Both the position numbers and the translations under genes were made by a program. Source: Pseudomonas alkylphenolica (GTDB lineage Bacteria; Pseudomonadota; Gammaproteobacteria; Pseudomonadales; Pseudomonadaceae). From it: DNA of 64,000 nt. Below the pieces are notes generated by a model. It had not been told where the DNA came from. It saw only the letters and a program-made list of their open reading frames with translations, and made no database searches. Positions within the stretch are counted from its first letter, which is position 1; each line of letters opens with the position of its first letter. Shown in pieces: positions 33,160 to 62,644 of this stretch. The DNA lies in assembly GCF_000746525.1 (NCBI RefSeq), contig NZ_CP009048.1:2411501-2475500 (forward strand), in the 5' to 3' direction.

Positions 33160-33189
33160 ACCCCTCCCCAATGGAGGGGGGAACCGATC
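33160..33189. promoter_or_regulatory. C-rich/G-rich dyad upstream of the LacI operon
   Basis: CCCCTCC-CCAAT-GGAGGGG, followed by GGAACCGAT. It lies about 75 bases before the LacI start and 60 bases after the LAL regulator stop. One of the clearest members of the dyad series. Confidence 0.5.
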
Positions 33190-33248
33190 GGCAGGTTTGT
33201 CGAGAAATGGCTTTTCGTTGCCCCGCAGCGGGGGCAGGCGGGCCGATG

Positions 33249-35957
33249 TCAGTCGATCAGCTTCTGGTTGCGGGCCTGGACCATGGCGTCGTAACGGCTG
33301 GAAACGCCGAGCTTGGCGAAGATATTGCGCAGGTTCCACTTCACCGTTTCCAGGGTGATATCCAGGGTGTGGGCGATGCGTTTGCTCGACATGGCCTGGG
33401 CCACCAGACTGAGGATTTCGCGCTCGCGCGGGGTCAGTAATGGCTGCTGCCCGGGTGGGGTGGTGCGCCGTGCGTGTGGCGTTGCAAGGTTTGGTGAGCA
33501 GGGGCCGGTGAGTTTGTCGATCAGTTCGTTCACATACTGGCGTAGCGGGTCTTGCAGCTCAGTGCTGGCCAGCGCACACAGCAGCTTTTCACTCAGCGCA
33601 CCTTCGTCCAGCAAGGTGCGCACCAGGCCCAGGCGCTGACCGGCTTCGACGGCCTGGCGCAGGCGCAGCAGCGCTTGATCATGACGCTTGAGGTCTTCCA
33701 GTACCTCCGCCGACAACAGGTCGACGAGCACGCCCAGGCGTCCGCGGTGGAAGCGCTCGGCAAAGTCCTTGACCCTGTCCAGCGCCTGCAGCGCAGCGTG
33801 TGAATCCTCACTGACCAGTATGCGCGCGTGCGCCAGGGCGGCGAGGGCCGGCAGCTCCGCCCGGCCGCCCTGGTCCTTGCCGTGCTCGTGTGCCAGCGCT
33901 TGCAGGGCGTGCAGCAGTTCGATGGCGTGATTGCGCTGGCCCTTGATCAGGCACACGCGGATCTGCTCGCCCAGCAGGTGAGCGACCGGGCGCATCTGCC
34001 CCAGGCTGCGCAAGTGGGCAATCTGCTGGCGCAAGAAGCTCAGGGCCGCGTCCGGGCCTTTCTGCAACAGATCAAGACGGCTGCGGCTCAGGTTGGTGCG
34101 CACGATGACATCGGGTACCGAGGAGTGCAGCAGGCCGAAGCGATTGGCGATCAGCTCACGGGCGTCATCGATCCGGTCCAGTTCATAGAACGCGTCGGCC
34201 AGCAGGCTGGCGCAGAGGTTGGCGCAGATTGAACGGTGTCCGCCTTCGCGGGTGGAGCGTTCCAGCAGTTCGGACGCCAGTACTTCGGCCTCGACGATGT
34301 CGCCGGCCAGCAAATAGGTGGTCAAGCGTGCGGACTCTGCCACCAGGGCCATGTCATTGCTGCGATCCTCGGGGGGGATCGGATGGGTGTCGAACAGGCG
34401 CCGGGCATCGGCATAGCGCCCTGCGGTGGCATAGGCAACCGTCAGGGCGGCGAGCAGTACATAGCGCAGAAAGGGGTTGTCCATCGGTGCGTCGCGCACC
34501 GGTTCCAGCAGGCGTATGGTCAGTTCGCTGTCGTCTTCCTGGATGGCCACCGCGGCATGGATCAGCGGCAGGCCACTGGCAAGTTCAGGGTGGGCGTTCA
34601 GGTTGCAGGCCTGCAAGCGGCTGAGCCAGGCTTTCGCCCGCCCCGGACGCGAGGTCAGCGACACCGTGAGGCAGGCCAGGAACAGCAGGCGTTGATGGCG
34701 AAACAACACGTCTTCGGGCAAACGTTCGAGCAGGCGCAAGGTCGGTGCCAGGTAATCCAGGCTCCAGGTCGCCGGCGTGGTCTGTTCAATGACCTGGACG
34801 GCAAAATCGGTGTCGTCAGCGAGGCTGGCGTGGCGGACCGCTTCGGTCAGGCAGTTGTGCCCGGCGAACCAGTGGGCGCCGAGGCGGTGCAGGGGCCGCA
34901 AGTCGTGCTCGCGGCGTTGCAGGCGGGCGCTGAGAAACTCGCCGAACAAGGGGTGGAAGCGATACCAGACGATGCGGTCGTCGGAGTCGACCCGATAGAT
35001 CAACAGGTTCTCGTCTTCCATGCGCTTGATCAGTTCGCCGGCTTCGGCGTTGCCGGTCACGGTAATGGCCAGGGCTGCGTTGAAACGCCGGAAGATCGAC
35101 AGCGCTTCCGCCACCTCCACCAGCTCGCTCGGCAAGTGCGCCACCACTTCCTCGCTGAGGTAGGTCTGCAGGTCGTTGGAGCGCCACACCAGGTCATCGA
35201 GGATCGAACGGGGATTGGGGCGGTTCTTCAGCATGATCGCGATCAACTGCAGGCAGGAGGGCCAGCCGCTGGTCAGGTCGTGGATCAGGCTGAGTTCATC
35301 GGCGTTGAGCTTGTCGGGGCCGAGGTTTTCTTCGATGAAGGTGCGGGTTTCGGCCAGGTCGAACGGCAGCTCGGCACTTTCAATCTCCACCACCAGGTCC
35401 ATGACCCGCAGCCGTGACAGGCTCAAGGGCGGATTGACCCGTGAGGCAAGCACCAGGTGCAGGTTGCTGGGGCTCTGGTCGAGCAGTTTCTGGATCAGCT
35501 TGTGGGCATGCGGGGCTTCGACATGGTGGTAGTCATCGACCACCAGGAACAGCTCCTTGCTCAGCATCGCCGCCGCGTTGACGATGATCGCGACCGTGCC
35601 GTCTATGGCCGAGAGGGTGTTGTCTTCGCGCTGCAGGTTGATGTCGATATCGATGCCCAGGCGCCGCAAGCCCTCCAGAAAGGCGGTGCAGAACGCGGAG
35701 TAACCCTTGTCATCGGCAGTCAGGGAAACCCAGGCCACTTCCGCACCGGCTTTGAGCCGGTCGTGGCGCCACTGCGCCAGCAGAGTGGTCTTGCCATAAC
35801 CCGCAGCACCGGTGACCAATACCAGCCGGCAATGATGCATGCGTTTGAGCTGCGCCAGCAGCGCGGCCCGGGCGACATGCCGGGTACCGATGCGCGGGGG
35901 CGAAAACTTGGTCGAGACCAAGTGCCTGGCAGGATTCTTGGGCAATGTGTTTTCCAC
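33249..35957 (-). CDS. MalT-like LuxR family regulator (LAL), first
   Basis: A 902-residue LAL protein. Walker A GAAGYGKTT (~50-58) and VVDDYHHVEAP (Walker B) form the STAND ATPase; TPR-like helices fill the middle; a C-terminal LuxR helix-turn-helix has LTPREREILSLVAQAMSSKR and TVKWNLRNIFAKLGVSSRY. LALs bind an effector in the TPR part and activate transcription. It shares architecture and almost the same recognition helix with the LAL at 57831. It is divergent from the SDR gene at 36115 with a G-rich dyad between. Confidence 0.92.
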   Translation of the reverse strand: MENTLPKNPARHLVSTKFSPPRIGTRHVARAALLAQLKRMHHCRLVLVTGAAGYGKTTLLAQWRHDRLKAGAEVAWVSLTADDKGYSAFCTAFLEGLRRLGIDIDINLQREDNTLSAIDGTVAIIVNAAAMLSKELFLVVDDYHHVEAPHAHKLIQKLLDQSPSNLHLVLASRVNPPLSLSRLRVMDLVVEIESAELPFDLAETRTFIEENLGPDKLNADELSLIHDLTSGWPSCLQLIAIMLKNRPNPRSILDDLVWRSNDLQTYLSEEVVAHLPSELVEVAEALSIFRRFNAALAITVTGNAEAGELIKRMEDENLLIYRVDSDDRIVWYRFHPLFGEFLSARLQRREHDLRPLHRLGAHWFAGHNCLTEAVRHASLADDTDFAVQVIEQTTPATWSLDYLAPTLRLLERLPEDVLFRHQRLLFLACLTVSLTSRPGRAKAWLSRLQACNLNAHPELASGLPLIHAAVAIQEDDSELTIRLLEPVRDAPMDNPFLRYVLLAALTVAYATAGRYADARRLFDTHPIPPEDRSNDMALVAESARLTTYLLAGDIVEAEVLASELLERSTREGGHRSICANLCASLLADAFYELDRIDDARELIANRFGLLHSSVPDVIVRTNLSRSRLDLLQKGPDAALSFLRQQIAHLRSLGQMRPVAHLLGEQIRVCLIKGQRNHAIELLHALQALAHEHGKDQGGRAELPALAALAHARILVSEDSHAALQALDRVKDFAERFHRGRLGVLVDLLSAEVLEDLKRHDQALLRLRQAVEAGQRLGLVRTLLDEGALSEKLLCALASTELQDPLRQYVNELIDKLTGPCSPNLATPHARRTTPPGQQPLLTPREREILSLVAQAMSSKRIAHTLDITLETVKWNLRNIFAKLGVSSRYDAMVQARNQKLID

Positions 35958-36027
35958 GATTCTTATTGGTTCGAACGAAGCTAGCCAAGCTGTCCAGACA
36001 GGTCAAGCCTTGCGCGGACAGCCGCTG

Positions 36028-36050
36028 ACCGCCCGCAAAGGGAGGGACGG
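36028..36050. promoter_or_regulatory. G-rich dyad-like motif between LAL and SDR genes
   Basis: ACCGCCC-GCAAA-GGGAGGG is a degenerate member of the C-rich/G-rich dyad series, in the 157-base divergent interval. It is imperfect and therefore uncertain. Confidence 0.3.
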
Positions 36051-36114
36051 GAGGGCGACGTTGTTTTCTAAGATCCGTCAGGTCCCCATTCAGGGTGCTA
36101 ACCAAGGAATCACG

Positions 36115-36858
<744 letters not shown>

Positions 36859-36860
36859 TG

Positions 36861-36932
36861 GTCGGCGCGGGCTTGCCCCGCGATACGATGTGTCTGACAC
36901 AGCGCAATCGCGGGGCAAGCCCGCTCCCACCG
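36861..36932. repeat. REP inverted pair
   Basis: Left half GTCGGCGCGGGCTTGCCCCG (slightly altered) is paired with an intact inverted REP ending CCCGCTCCCACC, between the convergent SDR and metallo-hydrolase genes. Confidence 0.88.
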
Positions 36933-36958
36933 GGTGGGGGGCTGACACAGCCTGACGA

Positions 36959-38017
36959 TTACAGGCGTTGGTACCAGGCCACGCCTTGGTCGTCGAGGCT
37001 GACGCTGATCTCGCCACGGTGTAACAGATAGTTCAGGCAGGCGAGGGCCTCACCGGTCGCCAGGGTGTATCGCGTGCTGTCTTCGCTACGCACTGTGGCG
37101 CGGAACAGCAGCGCGAACAGGTCGACCACCCGCCTGGGCTGGTCCAGGCCTTCGCGCAGACGCTCCAGCGCGTCATCGGCATCCGCCTGTAATTGCTCGA
37201 TGCGCGCATGCAGCCCATAGAAGGGTTTGTTATGCGCCGGCAGCACCAGCACATCATCCGGCACGCACCGGCGCAGCTTGCTCAACGAATCAAGCCACTC
37301 GCTCATTGGATCGGCGTCCGGTTCTGTCGGCTGCACCGAGACGTTGGAGGAGATGCGCGGCAACACCTGATCGCCCGATATCAGCAGCTTTCGCTGCGCG
37401 TCGTAAAGGCAGGCGTGCTCCGGCGAATGACCAGCGCCGACCAGCACTTGCCAGCGATGGCCGTCAATGTCGAGCTGCTCGCCGTCTTCGATGCGCCGAT
37501 AGCTGTCCGGCAGGGCCGAGAGCATGCGGCCGAAACCGCCGAAGCGCGTGCGATAGCGCTGCAGCGCCTGTTCGTCCCAGCCAGCGCGTTGATAGAACCC
37601 TAGCGTCTCTTCGGGTGCCGCGCGGCGGCTGTCGCTGGCTTGCATTCGACAGTGCAGGTATTCCAGGCGGGTCATCCACAGGCGGCAGGCGCAATGCCGG
37701 CTGAGCCAGCCGGCCATGCCGACATGGTCGGGGTGCAGGTGGGTGGCGATGATCCGGGTCAGTGGCCTGTCGCGCAATGCGCCATCGAGCAGTGCGCGCC
37801 AAAGAGCCAGCGTCTGCTCATCGTGGATGCCGGTGTCGACCAGCGTCGTCCCAGCGCCGTCAGCCAGCAGCCAGACATTGATGGTTCCCAGCGAAACCGG
37901 CAGTGGCAACCTGAGCCAGTGCACGCCCGCAGCAATCTGTTGTGGCACGCCAGGTGCGGGCGGCGTGGCGTAGGGGTAGCGCAGTTGCGCGTCTGAGCTG
38001 AGCGAAATGCCGTCCAT
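36959..38017 (-). CDS. Metallo-beta-lactamase-fold hydrolase
   Basis: A 352-residue protein. HLHPDHVG (metal motif HxHxDH), VGAGHSPEHACLYD (His), ISGDQVLPRISSNV (Asp) and LPAHNKPF (His) give a complete dinuclear-metal set, as in glyoxalase-II-like and lactonase/thioesterase MBL proteins. No signal peptide. Divergent from the DUF1302 gene with a G-rich dyad between, so probably part of the same regulon; a CoA-thioester or lactone hydrolase is possible. Confidence 0.85.
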   Translation of the reverse strand: MDGISLSSDAQLRYPYATPPAPGVPQQIAAGVHWLRLPLPVSLGTINVWLLADGAGTTLVDTGIHDEQTLALWRALLDGALRDRPLTRIIATHLHPDHVGMAGWLSRHCACRLWMTRLEYLHCRMQASDSRRAAPEETLGFYQRAGWDEQALQRYRTRFGGFGRMLSALPDSYRRIEDGEQLDIDGHRWQVLVGAGHSPEHACLYDAQRKLLISGDQVLPRISSNVSVQPTEPDADPMSEWLDSLSKLRRCVPDDVLVLPAHNKPFYGLHARIEQLQADADDALERLREGLDQPRRVVDLFALLFRATVRSEDSTRYTLATGEALACLNYLLHRGEISVSLDDQGVAWYQRL

Positions 38018-38056
38018 CGTTCTGTTCTCCTGTGGATGTGCCAGACGCTACAGCAG

Positions 38057-38098
38057 GGGGGGGTAGGGGGCACCTCCCTTTCAGAAAGGGGGGGGAGG
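38057..38098. promoter_or_regulatory. G-tract dyad between divergent operons
   Basis: GGGGGGGTAGGGGGCACC is followed by CCTCCCTTTC-AGA-AAGGGGGGGGAGG at 38073-38098 in the divergent region of MBL and DUF1302 genes. It belongs to the C-rich/G-rich series. The strong purine run could also form unusual DNA structures. Confidence 0.45.
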
Positions 38099-38198
38099 AC
38101 AGTTGCACGACGCTGGCACCCTTCCGGGCACTCGATCACTGATTGAGCGGCTTGCGAACCTGGAGGTCCAGGTTCAACCCAGGGGAGGAGACACCCAG

Positions 38199-39893
38199 AT
38201 GAATAACAAGAAAAAATCGAATCCACGTCGTCCCACCAGTAACCATGCAGTCCGGGCAACGGTCGTGACCTTGTGCACGCTGGCCTGCGCCAATGCCGTG
38301 GCCGTCGAGATCGACACCGGTAATGAAGATATCCAGCTGCGCTGGGACAACACCCTGCGCTACAACCTGGGCATGCGTGTCGAGGGGCAGGACAAGGCCA
38401 TCCTGACGAACCCGAACAACGATGACGGCGACCGCAACTTCGACAAGCACCGCCTGGTCAACAATCGCCTGGACATCCTCAGTGAGTCGGACATCGTCTA
38501 CAAAGGCAAGTACGGCGCGCGCGTCAGTGCCGCGTTGTGGTACGACGCCGCCTATGCCGGTGACCTGGACAACGACAGCGTCGCCACGTCCAACCACCTG
38601 GGCGCTGGCGGGCGTCCGGCCACGGGCTTGAGCCGCTATACCAACCGTTACTACGAGGGTCCGTCCGCCGAGTGGATGGACGCCTTCGTTTTTGGCGAGT
38701 ACAACCTTGGCGAGATGCCGCTCAAGGCCCGTCTGGGTCGTCACACCGTGAACTGGGGCGAGTCGCTGCTGGGTGCCGGCGCCATTCATGGCATCTCCTA
38801 CGGCCAGGCGCCCCTGGACCAGGGCAAGGCCCTGGCGCTGCCGGGGATCGAGGCCAAAGAGCTGTACCTGCCGCGCAATCAGTTCTCCACCCAGTTGCAG
38901 GTCAACCCCGCGCTGTCCTTTGCCGCGCAGTATTTCTTCGAGTGGCGGCCATCGCGGGTGCCTGAGTCTGGCAGCTACCTGGGCTTTGCCGATATCTACC
39001 AGCAAGGCGGCGAGTCGTTCATCCTCAGCCCCAGGCTGCGCGCCCTGCATGGCGATGACATCGAGCCGGACAACGCCGGTGACTGGGGCGTGATGGCGCG
39101 CTGGAGCCCGGAATGGCTGGACGGCACCCTGGGGTTCTACGCGCGCCAGTTCTCCGACACCCTGCCACAGGTGATCCTGCTGGCTAACGCACGGCCGCAG
39201 TACTTCCTCAACTACGCCGACAAGATCGACATGTACGGCATCAGCCTGTCGAAGGAAATCGGCGGCATCAGCGTCGGTGCCGACCTCAACTACCGGCGCA
39301 ACATGCCGCTGGTGAGCTCGGCGGCGCGGGTGACCTCTGCGGCGCAGTTGCCGGATGACGGCGACATTCTCGGTGCCCGTGGTGACACCTTGCATGGCGT
39401 CCTCAACGCCATCGGCTCGCTCAGCCCGACGCCGCTCTACGATGGTGCCAGCTGGTCGGCCGAGCTGACCTGGAGCCGCTGGCTGTCGGTCAACTCCGAC
39501 CCGCTGAACCTGTTCAAGGGCTCGTCTGCCTACAAAGCGGTACCCACCAATATCGACGCCGTGACCCGCGATGCCTATGGGCTGGCCGTCAACTTCACGC
39601 CGACCTGGTACCAGGTGTTCCCCGGTGGCGACCTGTCGATGCCACTGAGCTTCTCCCAGGGCATCAACGGCAACTCGGCCGTGGGCTCGGGGGGTAACGA
39701 AGATGCCGGCAGCTACGCCGTCGGCCTGGCGCTGGATGTCTACAGCCGTTACCGCTTCGACCTCAAGTATGTGGACTACTTCGGTGATTACTCGACCAAC
39801 CCGGTCACTGGTGCAGCTCTGACCCCAAGCGGGAGCCAGGCGCTGCTGGAAGACCGTGGCGCGGTGTACTTCACCTTCAAGACCACGCTCTGA
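38199..39893 (+). CDS. DUF1302 family outer-membrane-type protein
   Basis: A 564-residue protein. N-terminal signal peptide after a basic start (MNNKKKSNPRRPTSNHAVRA; hydrophobic VTLCTLACANAVA). The mature part is rich in beta-strand patterns with alternating aromatic residues (LRWDNTLRYNLGMRV, YNLGEMPLKARLGRHTVNWG, FSDTLPQVILL, SRYRFDLKYVDYFGDY) and ends in Phe-containing VYFTFKTTL, consistent with an outer-membrane beta-barrel. DUF1302 proteins occur beside hydrophobic-substrate catabolism and often with DUF1329, absent here. GGGGAGGAG precedes the start. First gene of a run with YCF48-like and MMPL genes. Confidence 0.85.
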   Translation: MNNKKKSNPRRPTSNHAVRATVVTLCTLACANAVAVEIDTGNEDIQLRWDNTLRYNLGMRVEGQDKAILTNPNNDDGDRNFDKHRLVNNRLDILSESDIVYKGKYGARVSAALWYDAAYAGDLDNDSVATSNHLGAGGRPATGLSRYTNRYYEGPSAEWMDAFVFGEYNLGEMPLKARLGRHTVNWGESLLGAGAIHGISYGQAPLDQGKALALPGIEAKELYLPRNQFSTQLQVNPALSFAAQYFFEWRPSRVPESGSYLGFADIYQQGGESFILSPRLRALHGDDIEPDNAGDWGVMARWSPEWLDGTLGFYARQFSDTLPQVILLANARPQYFLNYADKIDMYGISLSKEIGGISVGADLNYRRNMPLVSSAARVTSAAQLPDDGDILGARGDTLHGVLNAIGSLSPTPLYDGASWSAELTWSRWLSVNSDPLNLFKGSSAYKAVPTNIDAVTRDAYGLAVNFTPTWYQVFPGGDLSMPLSFSQGINGNSAVGSGGNEDAGSYAVGLALDVYSRYRFDLKYVDYFGDYSTNPVTGAALTPSGSQALLEDRGAVYFTFKTTL

Positions 39894-39995
39894 GCCGCGC
39901 TTGCCACTGCTGCAAGCTTCCCGGCGCTACTCCCGTTTGCGGGACCAGTGCCGGTGCAATGCGCGCTCGCGCGCAACTGATGTGAGGTGAACACG

Positions 39996-43549: not shown

Positions 43550-43595
43550 CGCCAACCTGAACCTGTCTTTAGCCCCGAATTCATAAGGAATCACC

Positions 43596-44845: not shown

Positions 44846-44883
44846 GAAGCCCGTACCCACAGGCAGTTGCTGCTAATTTCGCC

Positions 44884-44915
44884 TACCCCCTCCTCATTGA
44901 GGGGGGGGCAACCGG
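44884..44915. promoter_or_regulatory. C-rich/G-rich dyad before the truncated acyl-CoA dehydrogenase gene
   Basis: ACCCCCTC-CTCATT-GAGGGGGGGG, followed by CAACCGG, ends 60 bases before the 44975 start. It closely parallels the 33160 dyad, including the AACCG tail. Confidence 0.5.
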
Positions 44916-44974
44916 TCAGTCACAGGCATAACCTGCTGCGAACGGCGCGCGGATTTGAGCAGGGAACCAGAACC

Positions 44975-45661
44975 ATGACGATACCGATCACCACCGATGT
45001 GCAGCGACTGGCAGTGGAAAGCTTCCGCACCTTCCTTGCGTCCGAGGTAGCGCCGGTGGCCCGCCTGTTCGAGGGACGGAGCATACCTGCACAGAAAATG
45101 CGCGAACTCACCCAGGGCATTGCCGAGTTTGGCCTGCCCGGCGCCAGTATCGCTCAAGCTCACGGTGGCATGGGCCTGTCGGCGCTGACCGAGGCCATGT
45201 TGTTCGAGGAGCTCAGTGCGGTCTCCAGCGTGATCGCCGAGTGTGTCCTCGGCAACCTGCTGGTAGCGTCGGCGTTGGCAAATTTGCCAGCGGGCCGGGA
45301 CGCGTTACGCACGCGCTACCTGCCGGAGTTACTGGCCGGGCGCAGTATCGGCGGCTTCTTTCTGGAACAGGCAGAAGGCGTCAGTGCCAGGCCGACAGAT
45401 GATGGCTGGCTGATCAACGCTAATCACCAGTGGGTTTGCCATGGCCAGTTCGCGGATGTCCTCGTCACCCCGTTGCCTACCGAGGAGGGTGCCTGTTGTT
45501 ACGTAGTGGTGGAGCGTGAGCAACATGGCCATGTATCGCCCAACGGCGCCCCGGTCCCGGCACAGCTGACATTCAGCAACGTACGTTTGTCGGCCGACCT
45601 CAGTGACGCTCAGAAACTGTCTATCGCTCATGTGCTCACAGGGATCAGCGCGCAGGGCTGA
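44975..45661 (+). CDS. Acyl-CoA dehydrogenase-like protein, truncated
   Basis: A 228-residue protein. The helical N-terminal domain (IAEFGLPGASIAQAHGGMGL; EAMLFEELSAVSSVIAECVL) and part of the middle beta domain are present, but the FAD loop (normally EPxAGSD) reads FLEQAEGVSARPTDDG and the whole C-terminal domain with the catalytic Glu is missing. Only 85 bases separate the stop from the sulfatase, so no lost downstream part exists. It is either a decayed relic or a shortened non-catalytic protein. A dyad precedes it. Confidence 0.75.
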   Translation: MTIPITTDVQRLAVESFRTFLASEVAPVARLFEGRSIPAQKMRELTQGIAEFGLPGASIAQAHGGMGLSALTEAMLFEELSAVSSVIAECVLGNLLVASALANLPAGRDALRTRYLPELLAGRSIGGFFLEQAEGVSARPTDDGWLINANHQWVCHGQFADVLVTPLPTEEGACCYVVVEREQHGHVSPNGAPVPAQLTFSNVRLSADLSDAQKLSIAHVLTGISAQG

Positions 45662-52697: not shown

Positions 52698-52702
52698 GGT
52701 TG

Positions 52703-52894: not shown

Positions 52895-52935
52895 AGGGCA
52901 CAAAACGAAGGGGTTTCTTAACGAACCAAGGCGCG

Positions 52936-54507
52936 TCAGGACACGCAACGCGCCTTGTCTTTCCAGTACTTTTCCCGCACCTGGCGACGCAACACCTTGC
53001 CCACCACACTGACCGGCAGCGCGTCGACAAACAGAATCGACTTGGGCACCTTGAACCGCCCCAGGCGGCCTTTCACATGCTCGATCAACGCCTGGGCTGA
53101 AACGCTTTCACCGGCTTTGAGCACCACTTCGGCATGCACCGCCTCGCCCCATTCTTCATGGGGAATGCCGACCACCGCCGAATTGGACACCGCCGGGTGG
53201 GCATTGAGCGCTGCTTCCACCTCGATGGCGTAGACGTTGAAACCACCGGTGATGATCATGTCTTTCTTGCGATCAACCAGGAACAGGAAGCCCTGTGGGT
53301 CGATGTAACCCATGTCGCCGGATTTCCAGTAGCCGTTGTGAAACTCCGTGGCCGTGCCTTCAGGATTCTTGTAGTAACCGGCAATCGTCCCGCGAGAACG
53401 CACCCACAGCTCGCCGGTGGTGCCCAGCGGCACTTCCTGGCCGTTGTCGTCGACAATCAGGATCTCCGCGCCGACGGCGATGCGCCCGGCCGAAGACAGC
53501 TGCTTTTCGTTCTCGGTCAGGTGATCGGCCTTGCTCAGCAGGGCAACGGCATGCAGGCTTTCGGTGGCGCCGTAGATCTGCATGAAAATATTGCCGAAAC
53601 GCTCCTGGGCCTGACGCAGTTTTGTCGGGCTCATCGGTGCGGCACCGTAGGCCATGGTCTGCAGCGAGGACAGGTCGTAGTCCCTGGCTTCGGGCAATTC
53701 CAGCAGACGGTAGATCATGGTCGGCACCAGCAGGGTCATGGTGGCCTTTTCTGCTTCGATGTTGCGGCACAGTTGCGCCAGGTCCGGGATGTTCTGGGTC
53801 AGGGTGCAACCACCACGGAACAAGGTTGGCAACAGTCCCAGGCCGGAGCCGTGGCTGATGGGCGCCATGTGCAGGAAACGGGTGTCGGGCTGGTAAGGCT
53901 GTTCAGCCTCCAGGTACATCGAATCGCGCAGCGCCATCCAGTTGTCGATGGTGTAGGCAGCGCATTTGCTCTGGCCGGTGGTGCCACCGGTGAAGCGATA
54001 GACCAGCGCGTCTTGCTGTACGTCGTTGTCGATGCCGGGGTTGTGATCCGGGACGCCTTCAAGCAGGTCCCAGAAATACCACAGACCCTCGCGCGGGGTG
54101 GCGGGAGGGTCCATGCAGACAACCTTGATGCCTTGGCCATGCAGCAGGTCGAAATAGCGATCGATCAGGGCGTTCTCGATAAACACCACTTTCGGCCGCA
54201 GAAACTCCACCTGCCAACGATGCTCTTCGAAGGCGTCGCGATAGTTGGTGTAGGCTGCCGATGCATCACCCTTGAGCGCGGTCCAGGCATGGAACAGCGA
54301 GATGTTGTCGTTTTGCAGAATGCACAGGTAGACATCGCCGCGGCGCAGTTCAAGACGCTCGCGCAGCATGTTGACAATGCGATTGGTCAGCGCGTGCAGC
54401 TCACGGAAGGTATAGCGTCGATTGCGCTCGATGTTGACCAGGGCTTCCCGGTCGCCGAAACGCACGGCCAGGTTACCGACCGTGTGTGCGAAGTTCATTA
54501 TTGTCAT
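52936..54507 (-). CDS. AMP-binding acyl-CoA synthetase (FadD-like)
   Basis: A 523-residue ANL-superfamily ligase. Seen: the P-loop-like YRFTGGTTGQSK (A3), FMQIYGATESLH (A5), GELWVRSRGTIAGYYKNPEG (A7), YWKSGDMGYIDPQGFLFLVDRKKDM with Asp of A7/A8, and GKVLRRQVREK (Lys of A10). It activates a carboxylic acid with ATP to the acyl-adenylate, then CoA thioester. It closes the operon crotonase-thiolase-SDR-ligase and probably feeds it. GGAGAATAACC precedes the start. Confidence 0.9.
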   Translation of the reverse strand: MTIMNFAHTVGNLAVRFGDREALVNIERNRRYTFRELHALTNRIVNMLRERLELRRGDVYLCILQNDNISLFHAWTALKGDASAAYTNYRDAFEEHRWQVEFLRPKVVFIENALIDRYFDLLHGQGIKVVCMDPPATPREGLWYFWDLLEGVPDHNPGIDNDVQQDALVYRFTGGTTGQSKCAAYTIDNWMALRDSMYLEAEQPYQPDTRFLHMAPISHGSGLGLLPTLFRGGCTLTQNIPDLAQLCRNIEAEKATMTLLVPTMIYRLLELPEARDYDLSSLQTMAYGAAPMSPTKLRQAQERFGNIFMQIYGATESLHAVALLSKADHLTENEKQLSSAGRIAVGAEILIVDDNGQEVPLGTTGELWVRSRGTIAGYYKNPEGTATEFHNGYWKSGDMGYIDPQGFLFLVDRKKDMIITGGFNVYAIEVEAALNAHPAVSNSAVVGIPHEEWGEAVHAEVVLKAGESVSAQALIEHVKGRLGRFKVPKSILFVDALPVSVVGKVLRRQVREKYWKDKARCVS

Positions 54508-54521
54508 GGTTATTCTCCGTC

Positions 54522-54543
54522 CGGGCGTGTGGCTGCACGCCCG
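54522..54543. other. Hairpin CGGGCGTG-N6-CACGCCCG between SDR and ligase genes
   Basis: A perfect 8-bp stem with a 6-base loop lies 15 bases before the ligase start in the operon. It may be an mRNA-processing or attenuation structure. No U-tract follows. Confidence 0.4.
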
Positions 54544-54590
54544 TTGCGATCATCATCGCACGTTTATCTCGAGCCCTGTCCCGCGCAAGC

Positions 54591-55511
54591 TCAGGCCTGC
54601 TGAGCCTTGATGGCCTGCAGGGCGGTGTCGATGAAGACCTTCACCTGCTGGTTGGCGTCATCGCGGGGCACGGCGCTACTCCAGTCGGTGATCTGCTCCA
54701 GGTGCGCCTCGATGGCCTCTGGCGACAGCTCGTCGTTGCCGATGTACACCGGCGCGGTCTCTTCCATGCGCACGGCGCTGAACACGCCGGCACCGGCGCC
54801 GAGGATCAGCTTGGTCGGTGCGTTTTCACTGACCAGGAACAGCGCGCCCGGGGTGACCTGCTCAGGACGGCTGGCGGCCAGCAGTTCGGCCGGCATGACG
54901 TCTTCGGTCATGCGGGTGGCGGCCATCGGCGCCAGGGTATTGACCAGAATGTTGTTCTTGCGGCCTTCGATGGCAAGCATGTTCATCAGGCCGACCACGG
55001 CCATTTTCGCCGCGCCATAGTTGGCCTGGCCGAAGTTGCCGAACAGGCCGGCCGCCGAGGTGGTCATCAGGATGCGCCCGTAGTTCTGCTCGCGCATCAG
55101 CTCCCACACCGCTTTGCTGCAGTTCATCGAGCCCATCAGGTGGACATTGATCACCGCCTGAATGTCGGCCATCTCCATCTTGGCGAACGACTTGTCGCGC
55201 AGGATGCCGGCGTTGTTGATCAGGATGTCGACGCGACCGAAGGCTTCTACCGCCTGTTTGACCATGGCCTGGACCTGCTCGTAGTCGGCCACGTTGGCAC
55301 CGTTGGCGATGGCAGTGCCACCGGCCTGGCGGATTTCTTCGACCACAGCCAGGGCCGCGTCGGAAGAGCTGCCGGAGCCGTCGCGGCTACCGCCGAAGTC
55401 GTTGATCACCACCTTGGCGCCACGGGCGGCCAGGTTCAGGGCGTGAACGCGGCCCAGGCCGTTGCCGGCGCCGGTGACGATGGCTACACGGTCATCGAAG
55501 CGAATGGTCAT
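54591..55511 (-). CDS. SDR of the MFE-2/17beta-HSD4 type
   Basis: A 306-residue SDR. NAD motif TGAGNGLGRVHAL, NDFGGSRDGSGSS (long insert after the second strand, typical of peroxisomal MFE-2 3-hydroxyacyl-CoA dehydrogenases), NNAGILRD, catalytic Ser in TTSAAGLF and YGAAK. ~60 extra C-terminal residues follow. It would oxidise a D-3-hydroxyacyl-CoA, the opposite stereochemistry to the FadB-like protein at 20625. In the ligase operon, between thiolase and ligase. Confidence 0.88.
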   Translation of the reverse strand: MTIRFDDRVAIVTGAGNGLGRVHALNLAARGAKVVINDFGGSRDGSGSSSDAALAVVEEIRQAGGTAIANGANVADYEQVQAMVKQAVEAFGRVDILINNAGILRDKSFAKMEMADIQAVINVHLMGSMNCSKAVWELMREQNYGRILMTTSAAGLFGNFGQANYGAAKMAVVGLMNMLAIEGRKNNILVNTLAPMAATRMTEDVMPAELLAASRPEQVTPGALFLVSENAPTKLILGAGAGVFSAVRMEETAPVYIGNDELSPEAIEAHLEQITDWSSAVPRDDANQQVKVFIDTALQAIKAQQA

Positions 55512-55596
55512 GGTGTTTTCCTCTTGTTATTGATAATAGGTGGCGAACGGCGGAGGAAGTGCGTGGTTTCCCCTGAGTCGCCGTTCCCCATAAAGG

Positions 55597-56841
55597 TCAG
55601 GCGCGGCTGAAAATACCGACATGCTCGGTGGACTCTTCCACGCGCCAGAGGCCGCCGCCGTTGCCTTGCAGGGCAATGCGCGCACCTTCTACCTGACGCG
55701 GGCCGCAGTTGCCACGCAGTTGCTCGACCAGCTCGAAAATCTGCCCGATGCCGGTGGCGCCGATCGGATGGCCTTTCGACTCCAGGCCACCGGACGGGTT
55801 GACCGGCAAGCGGCCGCCGAGGGCGCTGTCGCCGCGTTCGGCCATGACCCCGCTCATGCCCGGTTCGCATAGGCCCAGCGCCTCGATGGCGAGCAGCTCG
55901 CCGATGGCGGTGGCGTCATGCACTTCGGCCACATCGACGTCCTGCGGAGCAATACCGGCTTGTTCGAATGCGGCCTTGCCGGCCAGGTGGGTACAGCCGT
56001 TTTCGTAGTCGTCGGCAGCGCGGGCTGAGGCGGAACGCACCACACTGGCCAGGACCTTGATCGCACGGTTTTTGTCGAAGCCGTATTTTTTCAGCGCCGA
56101 CTCGGTGCACAGGATCGCCGCAGCGGCGCCATCGGAGATCGGCGAGCACATCGGCAGGGTGATCGGGTAGGTGATCGGCGGCGCGGCGAGGATTTCCTCG
56201 ATGCTCATGGCGTTGCGGTACTGCGAGCGCTGGTTGTGCACCGAATGACCGTGGTTCTTCGAGGCGACGGCGGCCAGCTGGCGTTGCGTCACGCCATAAC
56301 GCTCCATCAGGCCGCCACGGCCGAGGGCCGCGTAGACGTCCATGAACGGGCTGTAGGGCTTCTCCGATTGCGAACCGGCAGGCGGCACCACGCCTTGGCC
56401 CATGGCGGCCAGGTAGTGCTTGTTCTCTTCGAAGGTTTCAATGTCCCAGGCCGATTCGAAGGCGGAGAACATTTTTGCCTTGTCGCTGTAGAACATCTTT
56501 TCCGCGCCGACCGCCAGGGCCACCTCGGCAGCGCCTGCCTGCAGCTGGGTCACCGCCAGATTGAAGGCATGGCTCGACGAGGCACAGGCGCCTTCGATGT
56601 TGAAGATCGGGATACCGTCCAGGCCCAGCGGCAGCAGCGCCACCTGGCCACGGATCATGTGCTGGCCATCGAAATGGCCCTGGGTGCAGTTGCCGAAGAA
56701 GCCGACCTGGATCCACTTGCGCTCGCAACCGGCGTCTTTGAGCGCGTCTTCCACCGCCCAGGCGGTGAGTTGCTTGACGGACTTGTCGATGTGCCGGCCA
56801 AAGGCGGTCATGCCAACGCCGACGATGTATACGTTTTCCAT
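55597..56841 (-). CDS. Thiolase, SCP-x/lipid-transfer type
   Basis: A 414-residue thiolase-fold protein. Nucleophilic Cys in IEGACASSSHAFNLAV; SKGHPIGATGIGQIFELVEQ carries His; IALQGNGGGLWRVEES closes the site, though the usual second Cys of acetyl-CoA acetyltransferases is absent. This suits the SCP-x/lipid-transfer group that cleaves 3-oxoacyl-CoA with branches or rings. It is joined in operon with SDR and crotonase genes. Confidence 0.88.
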   Translation of the reverse strand: MENVYIVGVGMTAFGRHIDKSVKQLTAWAVEDALKDAGCERKWIQVGFFGNCTQGHFDGQHMIRGQVALLPLGLDGIPIFNIEGACASSSHAFNLAVTQLQAGAAEVALAVGAEKMFYSDKAKMFSAFESAWDIETFEENKHYLAAMGQGVVPPAGSQSEKPYSPFMDVYAALGRGGLMERYGVTQRQLAAVASKNHGHSVHNQRSQYRNAMSIEEILAAPPITYPITLPMCSPISDGAAAAILCTESALKKYGFDKNRAIKVLASVVRSASARAADDYENGCTHLAGKAAFEQAGIAPQDVDVAEVHDATAIGELLAIEALGLCEPGMSGVMAERGDSALGGRLPVNPSGGLESKGHPIGATGIGQIFELVEQLRGNCGPRQVEGARIALQGNGGGLWRVEESTEHVGIFSRA

Positions 56842-56889
56842 CGTTGCCTCGAATTGTTCAGAAGTAAGGGGGGGGGCAGGGCGCCCGGC

Positions 56890-57663
56890 TCAGTAGCCCT
56901 TGAAATCAGGCTTGCGCTTCTCGGCAAAGGCGCGCACGCCTTCGGCCATGTCGTAGGAGCGCTGGTGGTTGCGCAGCTCCAGCAGTTCCTGGCGCAGGGC
57001 ATCGGCACGCGACTTGTCACCGGCTTCGTCGGCGACCTTTTTCATCTTGCGCAGTACCAACGGGCTCTTCTGCGCCAGTTTGTCGCCCAGGGCCTGAACG
57101 CGTTCGACCAGCTCGGCATCGGCGACCACTTCGCAGACCAGGCCGTAGGTCTTCATGTCCTGGGCGGGTAGGGCGTCACCGGTGAACAGCATGTACTTGG
57201 CGATGTTCTCCGGGATCTTGCGTGGCAGTACCGCCGCGCCACCACCGCCAGGGAACACCCCGAAGTTGGAGTGGGCATCGCCGAAGCGCGCGCTCTGGGC
57301 GGCGATGACTAGGTCGCAGCACAGTACGGTTTCCAGGCCACCGGCCAGGGCCAGGCCGTTGACGGCGGCGATGACCGGCTTGGGGAACACCCGCAAGGTA
57401 TCGAAGAAGGTGACGATAGTGTCCAGCAGGTCTTTCTCGCCTGGCAGCGGGGTGCCACCGGCCTTGAGGTCGGCGCCGGCGCAGAACGCCGTGCCGGTGG
57501 CGGTCAGCACCACCACGCGGACCTGGTTGTCGTTTTCCCAGGCGTGCAGGCGGGCGGTCATGGCCTCCAGCATTTCACGGTTCAGGGCATTCATGGCCTT
57601 GGGCCGGGTCAAGGTGATCCAGCCCACCTGGCCCTTGATTTCAAAAGAAACGGACTCGCTCAT
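56890..57663 (-). CDS. Enoyl-CoA hydratase/isomerase family protein
   Basis: A 257-residue crotonase. FCAGADLKAG and LALAGGLETVLCCD form the oxyanion hole and keep one catalytic Glu (GGLE), but the second Glu of hydratases (in QPEINLG) is replaced: ARFGDAHSNFGVFPGGGG has His there. It may be an altered hydratase or isomerase. The ATG at 57663 with GAGG 7 bases upstream is preferred over TTG at 57669. First gene of the minus-strand operon, divergent from the LAL. Confidence 0.85.
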   Translation of the reverse strand: MSESVSFEIKGQVGWITLTRPKAMNALNREMLEAMTARLHAWENDNQVRVVVLTATGTAFCAGADLKAGGTPLPGEKDLLDTIVTFFDTLRVFPKPVIAAVNGLALAGGLETVLCCDLVIAAQSARFGDAHSNFGVFPGGGGAAVLPRKIPENIAKYMLFTGDALPAQDMKTYGLVCEVVADAELVERVQALGDKLAQKSPLVLRKMKKVADEAGDKSRADALRQELLELRNHQRSYDMAEGVRAFAEKRKPDFKGY

Positions 57664-57734
57664 CTCCAATCCTCAATCACGCTGCAATTGACGTTTCTGT
57701 CTGAATTGGAACTTACGCGAGTGCCTCAGGGCCT

Positions 57735-57766
57735 CACCCCCCCCCTTGCGGACGGGGGCGCCCACC
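57735..57766. promoter_or_regulatory. C-rich/G-rich dyad between divergent operon and LAL
   Basis: CACCCCCCCCC-TTGCGGAC-GGGGGCGCCC lies in the 167-base interval between the crotonase and LAL starts. A looser member of the dyad series. Confidence 0.4.
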
Positions 57767-57830
57767 CTGGTGTCTGTTGCAGGATGCGGGCGACATCCAG
57801 GCAACACTGCCACGGGCGGAGACTCTAATA

Positions 57831-60542
57831 ATGCATACAAATGTCATCAACGCCGGCGATCTGCTGGTCGCCACCAAGTTCTCGCCACCGCGCCTGAACG
57901 CTCGGCACATTGTCCGTAGCCAGCTGCTGGGCCGCCTGCGCGAGTCGCAGCCGTGCAGCGCAACGCTGATTACCGGGGGGGCAGGCTTTGGCAAGACCAT
58001 CCTGCTCGCGCAATGGCGTCTGGAACTGATGAAGGCCGGGCTGGACGTGGCCTGGATCTCGTTCAGCCTCGACGACCGGCAGTTCGGCAGCTTCCTCTCG
58101 TATTTGCTCGAAGCGTTGCAGCGTCTGGGGATTGCCATCGAACAGGACTGGCTGCACAGCGATGGCAGCGAGCAGTCGATCAACACCCTGATCGCCATCG
58201 TTACCCACGCCGCACACGGCATCGACAAAGAACTGCATCTGTTGATGGATGACTTTCATCATGTGGAGTCGCCAGCCGCCCACCGCTTGATGCAGAAGCT
58301 GCTGGATCATTGCCCGGCCAACCTGCATATCACCATTGCCTCGCGCTCCACGCCAGCGCTGAGCCTGGGACGTTTGCGCATGCAGGGCCACGTGGTCGAG
58401 ATCGATACCGTCGAGTTGCCCTTCGATACCGACGAAACCCGCGACTTTTTCAAGCAGAACCTCAGCACCCTGGTACTCAGCGCCGACGAAGAGCGGCTGA
58501 TTCATGACCTCACCAGCGGTTGGCCGGCCAGCCTGCAGCCGATTGCCACCATGTTGCGGGTGCGTCCGAGCAAACGTGCGCACCTGCGCTCGATCCTGCG
58601 CAACTCGGCTGACCTGCAGGCCTACCTGGCCGAGGATGTGCTGGTGTGCCTGTCGCCGGAGTTGCTGGAGTTCATGGAGAAAGTCTCGATATTGCGGCGT
58701 TTCAACGCCGACCTCGGGGCGTTCGTCAGCGCCAACCGCCATGCCCCGGAGATGATCAAGCGTGCCGAGGACGAGAACCTGCTGATCTACCGTATCGAAT
58801 CGGATGACAGCACGCCGTGGTACCGATTCCATCCCTTGTTCGGCGAATTTCTCACCCAGCGCCTGGCGGCCCGTGGGGAGGGTGCGGTTCAGGCGCTGCA
58901 TCGCCGTGCGAGCCAGTGGTTCGCCGAACAGGAGTATCTGGTCGAAGCGGTACGCCACGCCAACCTCGGCGGCGATCGCGACTATGCGATCAAGGCAATG
59001 GAGGAGGCCGCGTCCAGCACCTGGAGCATGGCCTATATCAGCCCGATGCTGAGCCTGCTTGAGCGGCTGCCGCAGGACACCCTGTTTTCGCATCCCCAGC
59101 TGTTCATCACCGGCTGCCTGACCTACGCCTTCACCGCCCGCCCGGAAAAGGCCCAGCGCTGGCTGGAGCAGATGCGCCGCAGCGAGGCCGCGCGCAATCC
59201 GGCGATCTCCTCGAAACTGGTGCTCGCCGACGCGGCAATCGCTCTGCAGCTCGACCAGCCACGGCGGGTCATCAGCTTGCTGGAGGCGGCCCATCAGGCG
59301 CCTCTGGAAAACCGCTCGTTGCGCTACATCAGCTTCTCCGGTTTGGCCACCGCCTACCTTTCCGTCGGACGTGCGGCAGATGCGCGCAAGCTGCATGAAC
59401 AGTATCCGATCGACCTTCAAGACCGTGCCAACGACATGGCCATGGTGTTTGAAAGCACGCAGGCGCTGGCCCGCCTCAAGGAAGGCAATGCCCGCCAGGC
59501 CCTGAGCATTGGCGAAAGCGTTATCGCCCGGGCCGAGGAGGCCTATGGGCGCGGGTCGGTGTCTGCCAACCTGTGCGCCGCCACGCTGTGCGACGCCTAT
59601 TACGAACTGGACCGCCTCGATGACGCCCTGCGCGTGCTGGCCAACCGCAGCGGCATTTTGCGTTCATCCATGCCTGATGTGATGGGCCGGGCTTCGATTT
59701 GCCGCGCGCGCATCATCCTGCAACAAGACTCGCCTCAGGCGGCGCTGAGCTTCCTCGACACCCAAGGCGCGCATTTTCAGGTACTGGGGCTGGACCGGCT
59801 GCTGGCATTGATCCTGGCCGAGCAGGTGCGGGTGCTGGTGCTGCAAGGCGAAAGCCGCCGTGCCGCCGAGGTGGCAGGACGTCTGGCCAACCTGGCGGCG
59901 GCGCAGCGCCCGCATGCCGAAGCACGTGGCGAAATCGACTACCTGGTGGCGTTGTCCCGCGTGCGTCTGGCGCTGGCCGGGCATGACGGGCAGTCGGCAC
60001 TGGAGGCGCTGCCGGCTATCCATGCCTACGTCGAACAGGCGACACGTGGCCGCAGTTGGGTCAGGGCGCACCTGCTCAGCGTTCAGGTGCATGCGTTGCT
60101 GGGGCAGACGGATGCGCTGCTGGTGAGCCTGCAGCAGGCGTTGGAAGCCGGCGCGCGGATGGGCCTGGTGCGCACCGTGCTCGATGAAGGCCAGGGCGTG
60201 CTTGGCTTGCTTGCCAGGCACCAGGATGCGATCGCCTGGGAGCCGGCTGTTGCCGAGTACGTGCAAGCCCTGTTGAGTCGCGAAACGCCTGTGCAGGCGC
60301 CATCGCCGCTGGCCTGTGCGGCAAGGAACACGGTCGATTCGCCACGGGCCAGCCTGACCCCCCGCGAGCTGGAAATCCTCGGGCTGGTGGCCCAGGCGAT
60401 GTCGAACAAACGTATCGCCCTGACGCTCAACATCACCTTCGGCACGGTGAAGTGGAACGTGAAAAACATCCTCGCCAAACTCGGCGTCTCGAGCCGCTAT
60501 GCGGCGATTACCCTGGCGCGCCAGCAGGGCGTGCTCAAGTGA
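57831..60542 (+). CDS. MalT-like LuxR family regulator (LAL), second
   Basis: A 903-residue LAL paralogue of the protein at 33249. Walker A GGAGFGKTILLAQW (~49), LLMDDFHHVESPAA (Walker B), TPR-like middle, and C-terminal LTPRELEILGLVAQAMSNKR with TVKWNVKNILAKLGVSSRY. N-terminal LLVATKFSPPRLNARHIVRS matches the first LAL's LVSTKFSPPRIGTRHVAR. The start at 57831 is used; it follows GGGCGGAGAC. It is divergent from the minus operon and upstream of the plus acyl-CoA genes, both probably its targets. Confidence 0.92.
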   Translation: MHTNVINAGDLLVATKFSPPRLNARHIVRSQLLGRLRESQPCSATLITGGAGFGKTILLAQWRLELMKAGLDVAWISFSLDDRQFGSFLSYLLEALQRLGIAIEQDWLHSDGSEQSINTLIAIVTHAAHGIDKELHLLMDDFHHVESPAAHRLMQKLLDHCPANLHITIASRSTPALSLGRLRMQGHVVEIDTVELPFDTDETRDFFKQNLSTLVLSADEERLIHDLTSGWPASLQPIATMLRVRPSKRAHLRSILRNSADLQAYLAEDVLVCLSPELLEFMEKVSILRRFNADLGAFVSANRHAPEMIKRAEDENLLIYRIESDDSTPWYRFHPLFGEFLTQRLAARGEGAVQALHRRASQWFAEQEYLVEAVRHANLGGDRDYAIKAMEEAASSTWSMAYISPMLSLLERLPQDTLFSHPQLFITGCLTYAFTARPEKAQRWLEQMRRSEAARNPAISSKLVLADAAIALQLDQPRRVISLLEAAHQAPLENRSLRYISFSGLATAYLSVGRAADARKLHEQYPIDLQDRANDMAMVFESTQALARLKEGNARQALSIGESVIARAEEAYGRGSVSANLCAATLCDAYYELDRLDDALRVLANRSGILRSSMPDVMGRASICRARIILQQDSPQAALSFLDTQGAHFQVLGLDRLLALILAEQVRVLVLQGESRRAAEVAGRLANLAAAQRPHAEARGEIDYLVALSRVRLALAGHDGQSALEALPAIHAYVEQATRGRSWVRAHLLSVQVHALLGQTDALLVSLQQALEAGARMGLVRTVLDEGQGVLGLLARHQDAIAWEPAVAEYVQALLSRETPVQAPSPLACAARNTVDSPRASLTPRELEILGLVAQAMSNKRIALTLNITFGTVKWNVKNILAKLGVSSRYAAITLARQQGVLK

Positions 60543-60656
60543 CTGGACGCTGGCGGCGGCCGCTGCGCCCTCCCGAGAGGATAGGCGCGCATGGCCGGGG
60601 CCAGCCCGCATGCTCAGGTCAGCTACGACTATCCGACCCGGTTCAAGAGGAAGACC

Positions 60657-61802: not shown

Positions 61803-61819
61803 GTGAGGAGGGAAGGGAC

Positions 61820-62620
61820 ATGACTGACAGTGCGGTGCTGTATGAACGGATCGGCAAGACAGCGCTGATCACCCTGAACCGGCCGCAGAAGAAGAACGCC
61901 TTCGAGGCGGCCATCAACGAGGCCTTGCCGGTTGCCCTGAAGGCGGCGCGCGATGATCGTTCGGTGCGTTCGATCGTGCTGACCGGCGCTGGCGGCGCCT
62001 TTTGTTCCGGTTTCGACCTTGGCAGCCTGGATGCGGGTGAGGATGCGACGTTTGCCGGACGCAAGCTGGTGCTGGGCTTTCAAGAGTGGTTCACCGGCCT
62101 TGCCGACATGCCCAAGCCGGTGATTGCCGCGGTCGATGGCGCGGCGGTGGGCGCAGGCTTTTCCCTGGCCCTGGCCGCCGACTTCATGTTTGTCACGCCA
62201 CGCGTGCGGCTGTTGCCGACGTTCCTGAGCCTGGGACTGGTGCCGGACCTGTCGATGCTTTATGTACTGCCGCGCCTGGTCGGCCTGGCCAAGGCCAAGG
62301 AGCTGATCTTTTGCGCCCGTGCCCTCGATGCGCAGCAAGCCTTGGCGCTCGGCCTGGCGCAGGCGATCATCGATCAGGAGCAACTGCTCGACAGCGCCCT
62401 GCAGTTCGCCCGGCAGTTCGATGATGCACCCGCGGATGCATTAGGATTGAGCAAGACACTGCTTAACCGCTCCTTCGAAACCGATCGCCCGGCGATGACC
62501 GAGTTCGAAGCCTGTGCCCAGTCCTTGTGCGGGGCCAGCCATTACCATGCCGAAGCCGTACGGCGCTTCCTCGGCAAAGAAGGCTTGCCCTACCGTGGCG
62601 CGGTGTTGCCAGCGCCGTAA
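61820..62620 (+). CDS. Enoyl-CoA isomerase-like crotonase family protein
   Basis: A 266-residue crotonase fold: LTGAGGAFCSGFDLGSL and DGAAVGAGFSLALAADF form the oxyanion hole. Both hydratase glutamates are replaced (Ser in GAGFS, Thr in LLPTFLS), but Asp in SLGLVPDLS matches the catalytic Asp of PaaG/Delta3-Delta2-isomerases. An isomerase for double-bond shifting is thus more likely than a hydratase. In operon 17 bases after the dehydrogenase. Confidence 0.86.
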   Translation: MTDSAVLYERIGKTALITLNRPQKKNAFEAAINEALPVALKAARDDRSVRSIVLTGAGGAFCSGFDLGSLDAGEDATFAGRKLVLGFQEWFTGLADMPKPVIAAVDGAAVGAGFSLALAADFMFVTPRVRLLPTFLSLGLVPDLSMLYVLPRLVGLAKAKELIFCARALDAQQALALGLAQAIIDQEQLLDSALQFARQFDDAPADALGLSKTLLNRSFETDRPAMTEFEACAQSLCGASHYHAEAVRRFLGKEGLPYRGAVLPAP

Positions 62621-62644
62621 ACCTCCAAATAGGGAGGGGCCGTG
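62621..62644. promoter_or_regulatory. C-rich/G-rich dyad before the thiolase
   Basis: ACCTCC-AAATAG-GGAGGGG starts directly after the crotonase stop, 107-130 bases before the thiolase. It resembles the other dyads and may mark a separate promoter for the thiolase and next dehydrogenase. Confidence 0.4.

Follow-up and report, generated by a model that had tools for sequence, protein, structure and literature searches.

A 19-bp palindrome of the Pseudomonas alkylphenolica acyl-CoA island, a probable operator of its LAL activators

AlkS of Pseudomonas putida GPo1 and Alcanivorax is described, in passages of PMC8784404, as a LAL activator that uses a 20-bp inverted repeat before its target promoter and its own promoter, with positive feedback. 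Here, we describe a 19-bp palindrome that recurs in a 64,000-nucleotide stretch of the Pseudomonas alkylphenolica genome (5.76 Mb). This stretch, G000:C1:2411501-2475500, is called the window; seven-digit coordinates refer to the genome and shorter ones to the window. Two LAL genes, LAL1 and LAL2, lie in the window and a third, LAL3, is just beyond its edge at 2483308-2485971. On the sequence evidence, the palindromes are very probably operators of these LALs, which would be MalT/AlkS-like ATPase activators with a LuxR-type helix-turn-helix (HTH). As for AlkS, there is an inverted repeat of about 20 bp (here 19) upstream of proposed targets and of 39 of 72 LAL genes. Unlike the alkane hydroxylase genes controlled by AlkS, the genes here form an acyl-CoA island, and the likeness drawn here is one of description.

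MalT boxes are used singly or repeated. The MalT box of Escherichia coli is the short sequence GGA[TG]GA, as given in passages of PMC9628970. The LALs share the architecture of MalT and the site is likewise G-rich. Their N-terminal part matches the solved MalT structure 8bob (E 1.1e-41), and the match to the NCBIfam MalT model, at 301.9, falls short of that model's cut-off of 537. Unlike the MalT box, the site described here is a fixed 19-bp palindrome with arms CCCNCYC and GRGNGGG, and the MalT-box form was not found. The class II site of LuxR is centred near -42.5, over the -35 position, and has another operator sequence. The present palindrome is also an inverted repeat that would lie over the -35 position; unlike the LALs, which carry an ATPase, LuxR carries an acyl-homoserine-lactone domain. 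Passages of PMC9628970 give the LuxR operator as a 20-bp inverted repeat. They also describe SCO6993, a Streptomyces LAL, as a repressor that binds short palindromes, including one at its own promoter, for which its authors could not predict a consensus. Our LALs resemble SCO6993 in having palindromic sites, putatively also at their own promoters. They differ in that we propose activation, and a defined motif. RdmA, according to passages of PMC9973270, is an unrelated regulator of the TetR type. Activation by AlkS and MalT has been described, so systems of this kind are known. Our literature search did not turn up this operator or regulon. No title or abstract opening among the top-ranked open-access literature named the operator, which is not proof of absence.

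All nine dyads listed in a preliminary description of the window were found at the positions given for them. Each is a variant of one fixed-length 19-bp palindrome, CCCNCYCNNWNNGRGNGGG, with the frame CCCNCYC-N5-GRGNGGG. Hence, the variable spacer of 3-8 bases proposed in that description was not borne out. The apparent variation arises because, in scans for perfect pairs, pairing stops at a different point in each site. The AACC said to trail many of the dyads falls outside the motif, where flanking columns carry at most 0.1 bit. A palindromic position weight matrix (PWM) was seeded with CCCCCTC-N5-GAGGGGG and iterated on 19 regions (816,444 bp) round LAL genes in 15 Pseudomonas genomes. Its columns read C, C, C, C or A, C, T or C, and C, followed by N5 and the mirror image, and the information content is about 15.6 bits. 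With the 19-bp PWM seven of the nine sites score above 11 bits; all seven belong to the training set. The first exact pattern tried, CCCYTCCN{3,8}GGARGGG, was rejected as too narrow (one site in the genome).

The abundance of the motif was compared with that in control DNA. With 7-nt arms and at most one mismatch, the window contains 11 C..G dyads versus 2 G..C dyads. A 35-wide PWM found 112 sites in the Pseudomonas LAL regions, against 11 in reversed DNA and 9 in dinucleotide shuffles (mean of five). In leave-one-genome-out scans of the LAL regions of the 15 genomes there were 106 sites versus 13 in reversed DNA, with a strong excess where the LAL is at least 47% identical to LAL1. A PWM made from our own region alone (nine training sites) found 81 sites elsewhere versus 16. 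The motif was also recovered without a seed. In the Pseudomonas regions, the top gapped palindromes were CCCC-N10-GGGG (111 versus 8.5 expected) and CCCCC-N9-GGGGG (48 versus 0.5). At 24 LAL loci outside Pseudomonas, they were CCCCT-N7-AGGGG (21 versus 0.1) and CCCC-N10-GGGG (42 versus 2.2). In our own 124 kb, a REP-like palindrome, GCGGG-N5-CCCGC, ranked first (20 versus 0.5 expected), with CCCC-N13-GGGG fifth (8 versus 1.2) and CCCC-N9-GGGG tenth (7 versus 1.2). Thus, an unseeded search of this single region is insufficient to pick the motif out. A second palindrome, GAGCC-N7-GGCTC, was enriched both in the Pseudomonas LAL regions (26 versus 0.9) and outside the genus (21 versus 0.8).

The motif is not placed at random in the genome. 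A model named R1 (A2/R1) was made from 65 of 92 sites, the rest having been removed by eye, mostly as near-duplicates. Our genome was scanned with R1 at a threshold of E <= 10, and scores were computed for 150 of 181 first-look candidates. The best E was 0.08, and there were 15 strand matches, equal to 10 sites. Nine of these sites lie in one 87-kb LAL/acyl-CoA island (2436161 to 2523258). Seven of the ten were in the R1 training set, and of the other three, two also belong to this island and are flanked by DUF1302 and thiolase frames. The tenth, at 2866138 (L173:10138; 17.2 bits), is about 340 kb away, with a WS/DGAT wax ester synthase gene on one side and a 421-aa open reading frame (ORF) on the other. 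It has an in-phase -10-like TATGCT (score 6.1) toward the ORF and a weaker GAATCT (4.3) toward the synthase gene.

The motif accompanies LAL genes in Gamma-, Beta- and Alphaproteobacteria. At the 24 loci outside Pseudomonas, where the LAL is 45-63% identical to LAL1, there were 60 matches versus 1 in reversed DNA (434 kb). Pseudomonas loci among the named genomes overlap the training genomes and were not counted as independent. The 39 of 72 LAL genes mentioned above (identity at least 35%) are those preceded, within 400 nt, by a dyad of more than 9 bits; in reversed DNA the count was 2 of 72. Where the LAL was less than 35% identical to LAL1 (seven loci), there was no clear excess (4 versus 1 reversed in 124 kb). 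We also examined 30 DUF1302-homologue loci of 23 genomes classed as LAL-less (no LAL1 relative at E <= 1e-60). These loci came from 33 DUF1302 matches in 16 genomes, at 29-53% identity, and some are two pieces of one gene. Their 122 kb contained no dyad, and 1 was found in the reversed DNA.

Though about 90% of the DNA was called coding, 82 of 107 sites are outside called genes. Gene starts were taken from a crude in-house gene caller or directly from the sequence. Of the 82 intergenic sites, 33 are flanked by divergent starts, 45 by one end and one start, and 4 by two ends. Most sites are within 300 nt upstream of a start, and distances from dyad centre to gene start cluster at about 70-120 nt. 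For the -10 profile of the Pseudomonas set we used a score, and a threshold of 4.5, devised for this analysis; the 25 of 107 sites inside genes, and sides with a start less than 40 nt away, were left out. On 103 sides a gene starts at a distance of 40-300 nt. Here a -10-like hexamer begins at offset 31 from the centre in 30 cases, at 32 in 20 and at 33 in 8, making 58 matches. All other offsets from 10 to 57 gave 0 to 5 matches each on these sides. On 53 gene-end sides, the three offsets gave 4, 2 and 0 matches (6 in total). The same phase was found for the 60 non-Pseudomonas sites outside PWM training, with repeated sites dropped: 49 matches at 31-33 on 120 sides, against a mean of 4.2 and a maximum of 11 in other 3-wide windows. 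For our own nine sites, the hexamer at 31-33 on the gene-start side scores at least 4.5 in eight and 4.4 in the remaining one, 27277.

Bases 10-13 from the centre, where a -35 element would be, are G-rich. By convention the -10 element is numbered -12 to -7. Counting from the -10-like hexamers, the dyad centre would fall at about -43 to -45. The arrangement has the geometry of a class II activator site: an in-phase -10, no -35 and a centre placed by this numbering close to the -41 to -43 of such sites. A dyad near -43 over a missing -35 element argues for an activator site. Where two dyads share a divergent region, each can serve the gene on its own side. In the pair 2481803/2481833, the -10 score is 7.1 leftward of the first dyad and 4.8 rightward of the second. 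The single dyad 57735 may serve both sides (scores 4.8 and 4.5).

The dyad is conserved at orthologous loci. Three alignments were made, each confined to loci that carry the site. Mean column identity was 0.96 in the dyad versus 0.77 in the flanks for the promoter shared by LAL2 and an enoyl-CoA hydratase (ECH) gene (6 sequences). It was 0.99 versus 0.85 between the metallo-beta-lactamase-fold (MBL) and DUF1302 genes (7 sequences). At the LAL3 promoter (10 sequences), identity was 0.89 versus 0.63; the arms are kept and the centre and surroundings drift. In the MBL/DUF1302 promoter region (38060-38200; orthologues L080-L097), an extended G-run and, downstream, the block GCACTCGATCACTGATTGAG are also conserved. 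There may be another element in this region.

LAL1 and LAL2 show the features of the class: a length of about 900 aa, an N-terminal STAND/Walker ATPase (AAA_22, AAA_16 and nSTAND matches, weaker in LAL2) and a C-terminal LuxR-type (GerE) HTH (PF00196; E 7.7e-14 for LAL1 and 2.4e-14 for LAL2). The MalT-like TPR sensor, PF17874, scores 40.9 for LAL1, below the curated 45-bit cut-off, and 48.2 for LAL2, above it. Residues G53, G55 and K56 are invariant in 26 aligned LALs. Among named genomes, strains of Pseudomonas alkylphenolica carry the nearest relatives of LAL1 (88 and 86%). The near-identity of the recognition helices, noted earlier for two LALs, holds for all three (TVKWNLRNI, TVKWNVKNI and TVKWNLKNI), and their HTH domains have 40-42 of 56 residues in common. 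L110, L148 and L154 were dropped from the recognition-helix alignment for stops in the frame used. In that alignment, LALs of at least 35% identity have Asn in T[VI]KWN, and nine more distant ones have His in eight (seven KWH, one KTH) and Tyr in one (KWY). Asn in the helix goes with operator presence, which is a correlation only. Co-occurrence with LAL genes, an activator position and like helices support the earlier suggestion of one shared LAL operator, with binding, and use by all three proteins, being putative. Neither outcome that the preliminary description named as refuting this, random placement across the genome or lack of conservation at orthologous loci, was observed.

Several observations weigh against this assignment or limit the evidence for it. 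The loci were fetched through their LAL genes and so co-occurrence would also fit another common gene. In a scan of the genus, LAL1 relatives at E <= 1e-150 were found in 16 of 398 genomes. Using R1 at E <= 0.3 with stricter filters, sites were present in 12 of these 16 versus 21 of the 382 without a close LAL (Fisher 1.9e-11), a contrast that favours the LALs and is partly circular because 13 of the 16 supplied sites for R1. Put the other way, four LAL-bearing genomes lack a site at this threshold and 21 genomes without a close LAL have one. Among the three genomes unused for R1, only G225 was positive (7 strand matches); G287 and G340 had none. New R1 sites were found beyond the fetched stretches in G110, G292 and G341. 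Five genomes with only distant LALs (36-42% identity) gave 9 held-out sites versus 4 reversed (G015 1/0, G235 3/1, G264 3/1, G287 2/2 and G340 0/0). No dyad was found in the 400 nt upstream of 33 of the 72 LAL genes of at least 35% identity. Our own DUF1302 promoter has no good in-phase -10 (best 4.2 at +34). The sites centred at 36037 and 62630 rank only 29 and 31 among window positions, with 5.8 and 4.6 bits. Base -6 varies with LAL subclade, which speaks for the LALs, being A in 28 of 56 half-sites for LALs of 35-44% identity versus 29 of 202 for those of at least 45%, where C is preferred; the P value of 1e-7 ignores shared descent.

The alternative that fares best keeps the operator and changes its user. 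The dyads could serve a single LAL, such as LAL3, with the other LALs using different sites. LAL3-type genes have cleanly conserved upstream dyads, nothing but the weak site 36028 lies in the LAL1 promoter region, and L111, a LAL2-type locus, has no dyad in its 18.7 kb. The near-identical recognition helices argue the other way, as do the dyad found at the LAL2 promoter both here and in five named LAL2-type loci, and the occurrence of the same motif at loci outside Pseudomonas. We consider this alternative unlikely, if still a serious one.

It is much less probable that the dyads are operators of another island regulator with which the LALs merely co-travel. One candidate is the LacI-family protein encoded at 32045-33088. 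LacI proteins usually use palindromic sites, and the strongest site, 33160, is directly upstream of this gene. A centre near -43 without a -35 element fits an activator rather than a typical repressor. The 24 loci outside Pseudomonas, which carry the dyads as a set, all have thiolase homologues, which are not DNA-binding proteins, and all have a LAL by construction. In none of the 24 was there a LacI homologue at E <= 1e-20, LacI being the only other regulator sought. On this count LacI was rejected as the dyad regulator.

RNA hairpins, either terminators or structures of the 5'-UTR, are a very improbable reading. The GC-rich arms and short loops could fold, and most sites are close upstream of starts. 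An RNA stem is expected to show covariation, and two half-sites read independently by a protein are not. At the nine arm positions, pairing was at most about 1.1 SD above the shuffled mean; at -4, it was seen in 39 of 98 distinct sites versus 47.4. Arms without covariation point to a DNA operator rather than a hairpin. The C-rich arm comes first by preference (106 versus 13 reversed in the held-out scans), and just 4 of the 82 intergenic sites have a gene end on both sides. With the -10-like hexamer downstream of the dyad, the dyad would not be transcribed from that promoter. The hairpin was rejected for its lack of covariation and because the sites are not positioned after genes.

Chance GC-rich dyads or REP-type repeats are just as improbable for the whole set and we take them as refuted by the reversed and shuffled controls, the clustering in 87 kb, the conservation and the -10 phasing, even though REP-type repeats are common in the window, head the unseeded list for our 124 kb and explain one PWM match. 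That match, 36929 (36920-36938; 12.2 bits), the eighth in the window, is inside a REP-type repeat between two gene ends and was excluded from the operators. The REP-type palindrome GCGGG-N5-CCCGC produces such false dyad matches. REP-type repeats occur at 36915-36938 and elsewhere in the window, with GCAAGCCCGC at 1858, 19759, 25067, 36915 and 44829. The genomic site 2528470 shares CCCGCTCCCACCGGG letters with 36929 and is probably REP-derived.

For operators of the island's LAL activators, we propose the following. A LAL carrying ATP and its inducer, probably an acyl-CoA or an acid of the pathway, would place two HTH domains on the arms of the palindrome. By analogy with MalT, the binding unit may be a LAL dimer or two protomers of a larger STAND assembly, and it would form when ATP and inducer are bound. 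From about -43, the LAL would recruit σ70 RNA polymerase to the -10 element starting 31-33 bp from the dyad centre. Targets would be genes for acyl-CoA dehydrogenases, hydratases, thiolases, ligases and DUF1302-type proteins, often with the LAL gene itself; a dyad before the LAL gene would give positive feedback. The direction of regulation and the inducer are, like binding, inferred.

The strongest operator of the genome scan is 33160 (33162-33180, centre 33171; 20.2 bits). A -10-like TAGCAT (33135-33140, minus strand) leads to the LacI-family gene (32045-33088, minus strand), the first gene downstream, 83 nt away. Operator 44884 (44887-44905, centre 44896; 17.5 bits) has TAACCT at 44929-44934 (plus strand), 79 nt before a truncated acyl-CoA dehydrogenase gene (44975-45661, plus strand), a proposed target. 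This 228-aa protein with only an N domain has a strong operator of its own and an in-phase -10. Operator 38073 (38074-38092, centre 38083; 12.8 bits) lies between the divergent MBL (36959-38017, minus strand) and DUF1302 (38199-39893, plus strand) genes, both proposed targets; at six named loci, the orthologous sites reach 18.1. Operator 57735 (57739-57757, centre 57748; 13.3 bits) separates ECH (56890-57663, minus strand), a proposed target, from LAL2 (57831-60542, plus strand), a proposed activator with MalT-type TPR and LuxR HTH and with this operator in its own promoter region. The hexamers are TAAGTT (57710-57715, minus strand) and CAGGAT (57780-57785, plus strand). On the same strand, ECH is followed by genes for a thiolase (55597-56841), an SDR (54591-55511) and an acyl-CoA ligase (52936-54507).

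Not all the dyads first described as weaker are so. Two look real and precede acyl-CoA dehydrogenase genes of the minus strand. Operator 24658 (24660-24678, centre 24669; 14.9 bits), with TCTACT at 24633-24638 (minus strand), is 79 nt from the frame 22773-24590, which is followed by a FadB-like gene (20625-22736, minus strand). Operator 27277 (27278-27296, centre 27287; 17.8 bits), with TGAACT at 27251-27256 (minus strand), is 115 nt from 25376-27172. Operator 17148 (17150-17168, centre 17159) also scores well, at 13.4 bits, and has TAAGCT at 17192-17197 (plus strand), 78 nt before a DUF1254/DUF1214 gene starting at 17237. By PWM, 36028 (36028-36046, centre 36037) is indeed weak, as is 62621 (62621-62639, centre 62630), which had been counted among the main dyads. 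The first is 78 nt from an SDR gene (start 36115) and has TAAGAT at 36069-36074 (plus strand; 6.1 at +32). The second is 121 nt from an SCP2-type thiolase gene (62751-63938, plus strand), a proposed target, and has TATCCT at 62661-62666 (plus strand; 6.1 at +31). These single weak sites could be of chance origin.

LAL1, a 902-aa frame with STAND ATPase, MalT-type TPR and LuxR HTH (33249-35957, minus strand), is also a proposed activator. Genes for acyl-CoA dehydrogenases, enoyl-CoA hydratases, SCP2-type thiolases and acyl-CoA ligases surround the LALs, together with DUF1302/DUF1329, MMPL, sulfatase and metallo-beta-lactamase-fold genes. Among the NCBIfam matches listed for 10 proteins, only the lipid-transfer protein model PRK08256, for the SCP2-type thiolase, was above its cut-off and hence we name no substrate for the pathway.

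The island has three LAL paralogues and relatives have more. In one relative, G027 (L003, L007, L009 and L011-L016), nine LAL matches reach E <= 1e-60. Three of the nine fall within 21 kb, and the region that contains these three has 13 PWM matches in 80 kb. More tentatively, and with the balance slightly against it, several paralogous LALs could share one operator and each sense a different intermediate, so that one set of promoters integrates the inducers; this network would have travelled with acyl-CoA islands across Gamma-, Beta- and Alphaproteobacteria.

The motif is real and well supported; the finding is useful rather than startling. A LAL subfamily found here from Pseudomonas to Paraburkholderia, Cupriavidus, Variovorax and Sphingopyxis gains a defined operator and a precise promoter geometry. 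Regulons of acyl-CoA catabolic islands become readable from sequence. In this genome, distant candidate members are the DUF1302/thiolase genes at 2523 kb and the wax-ester-synthase region at 2866 kb. The operator also offers direct bench tests and parts for biosensors.

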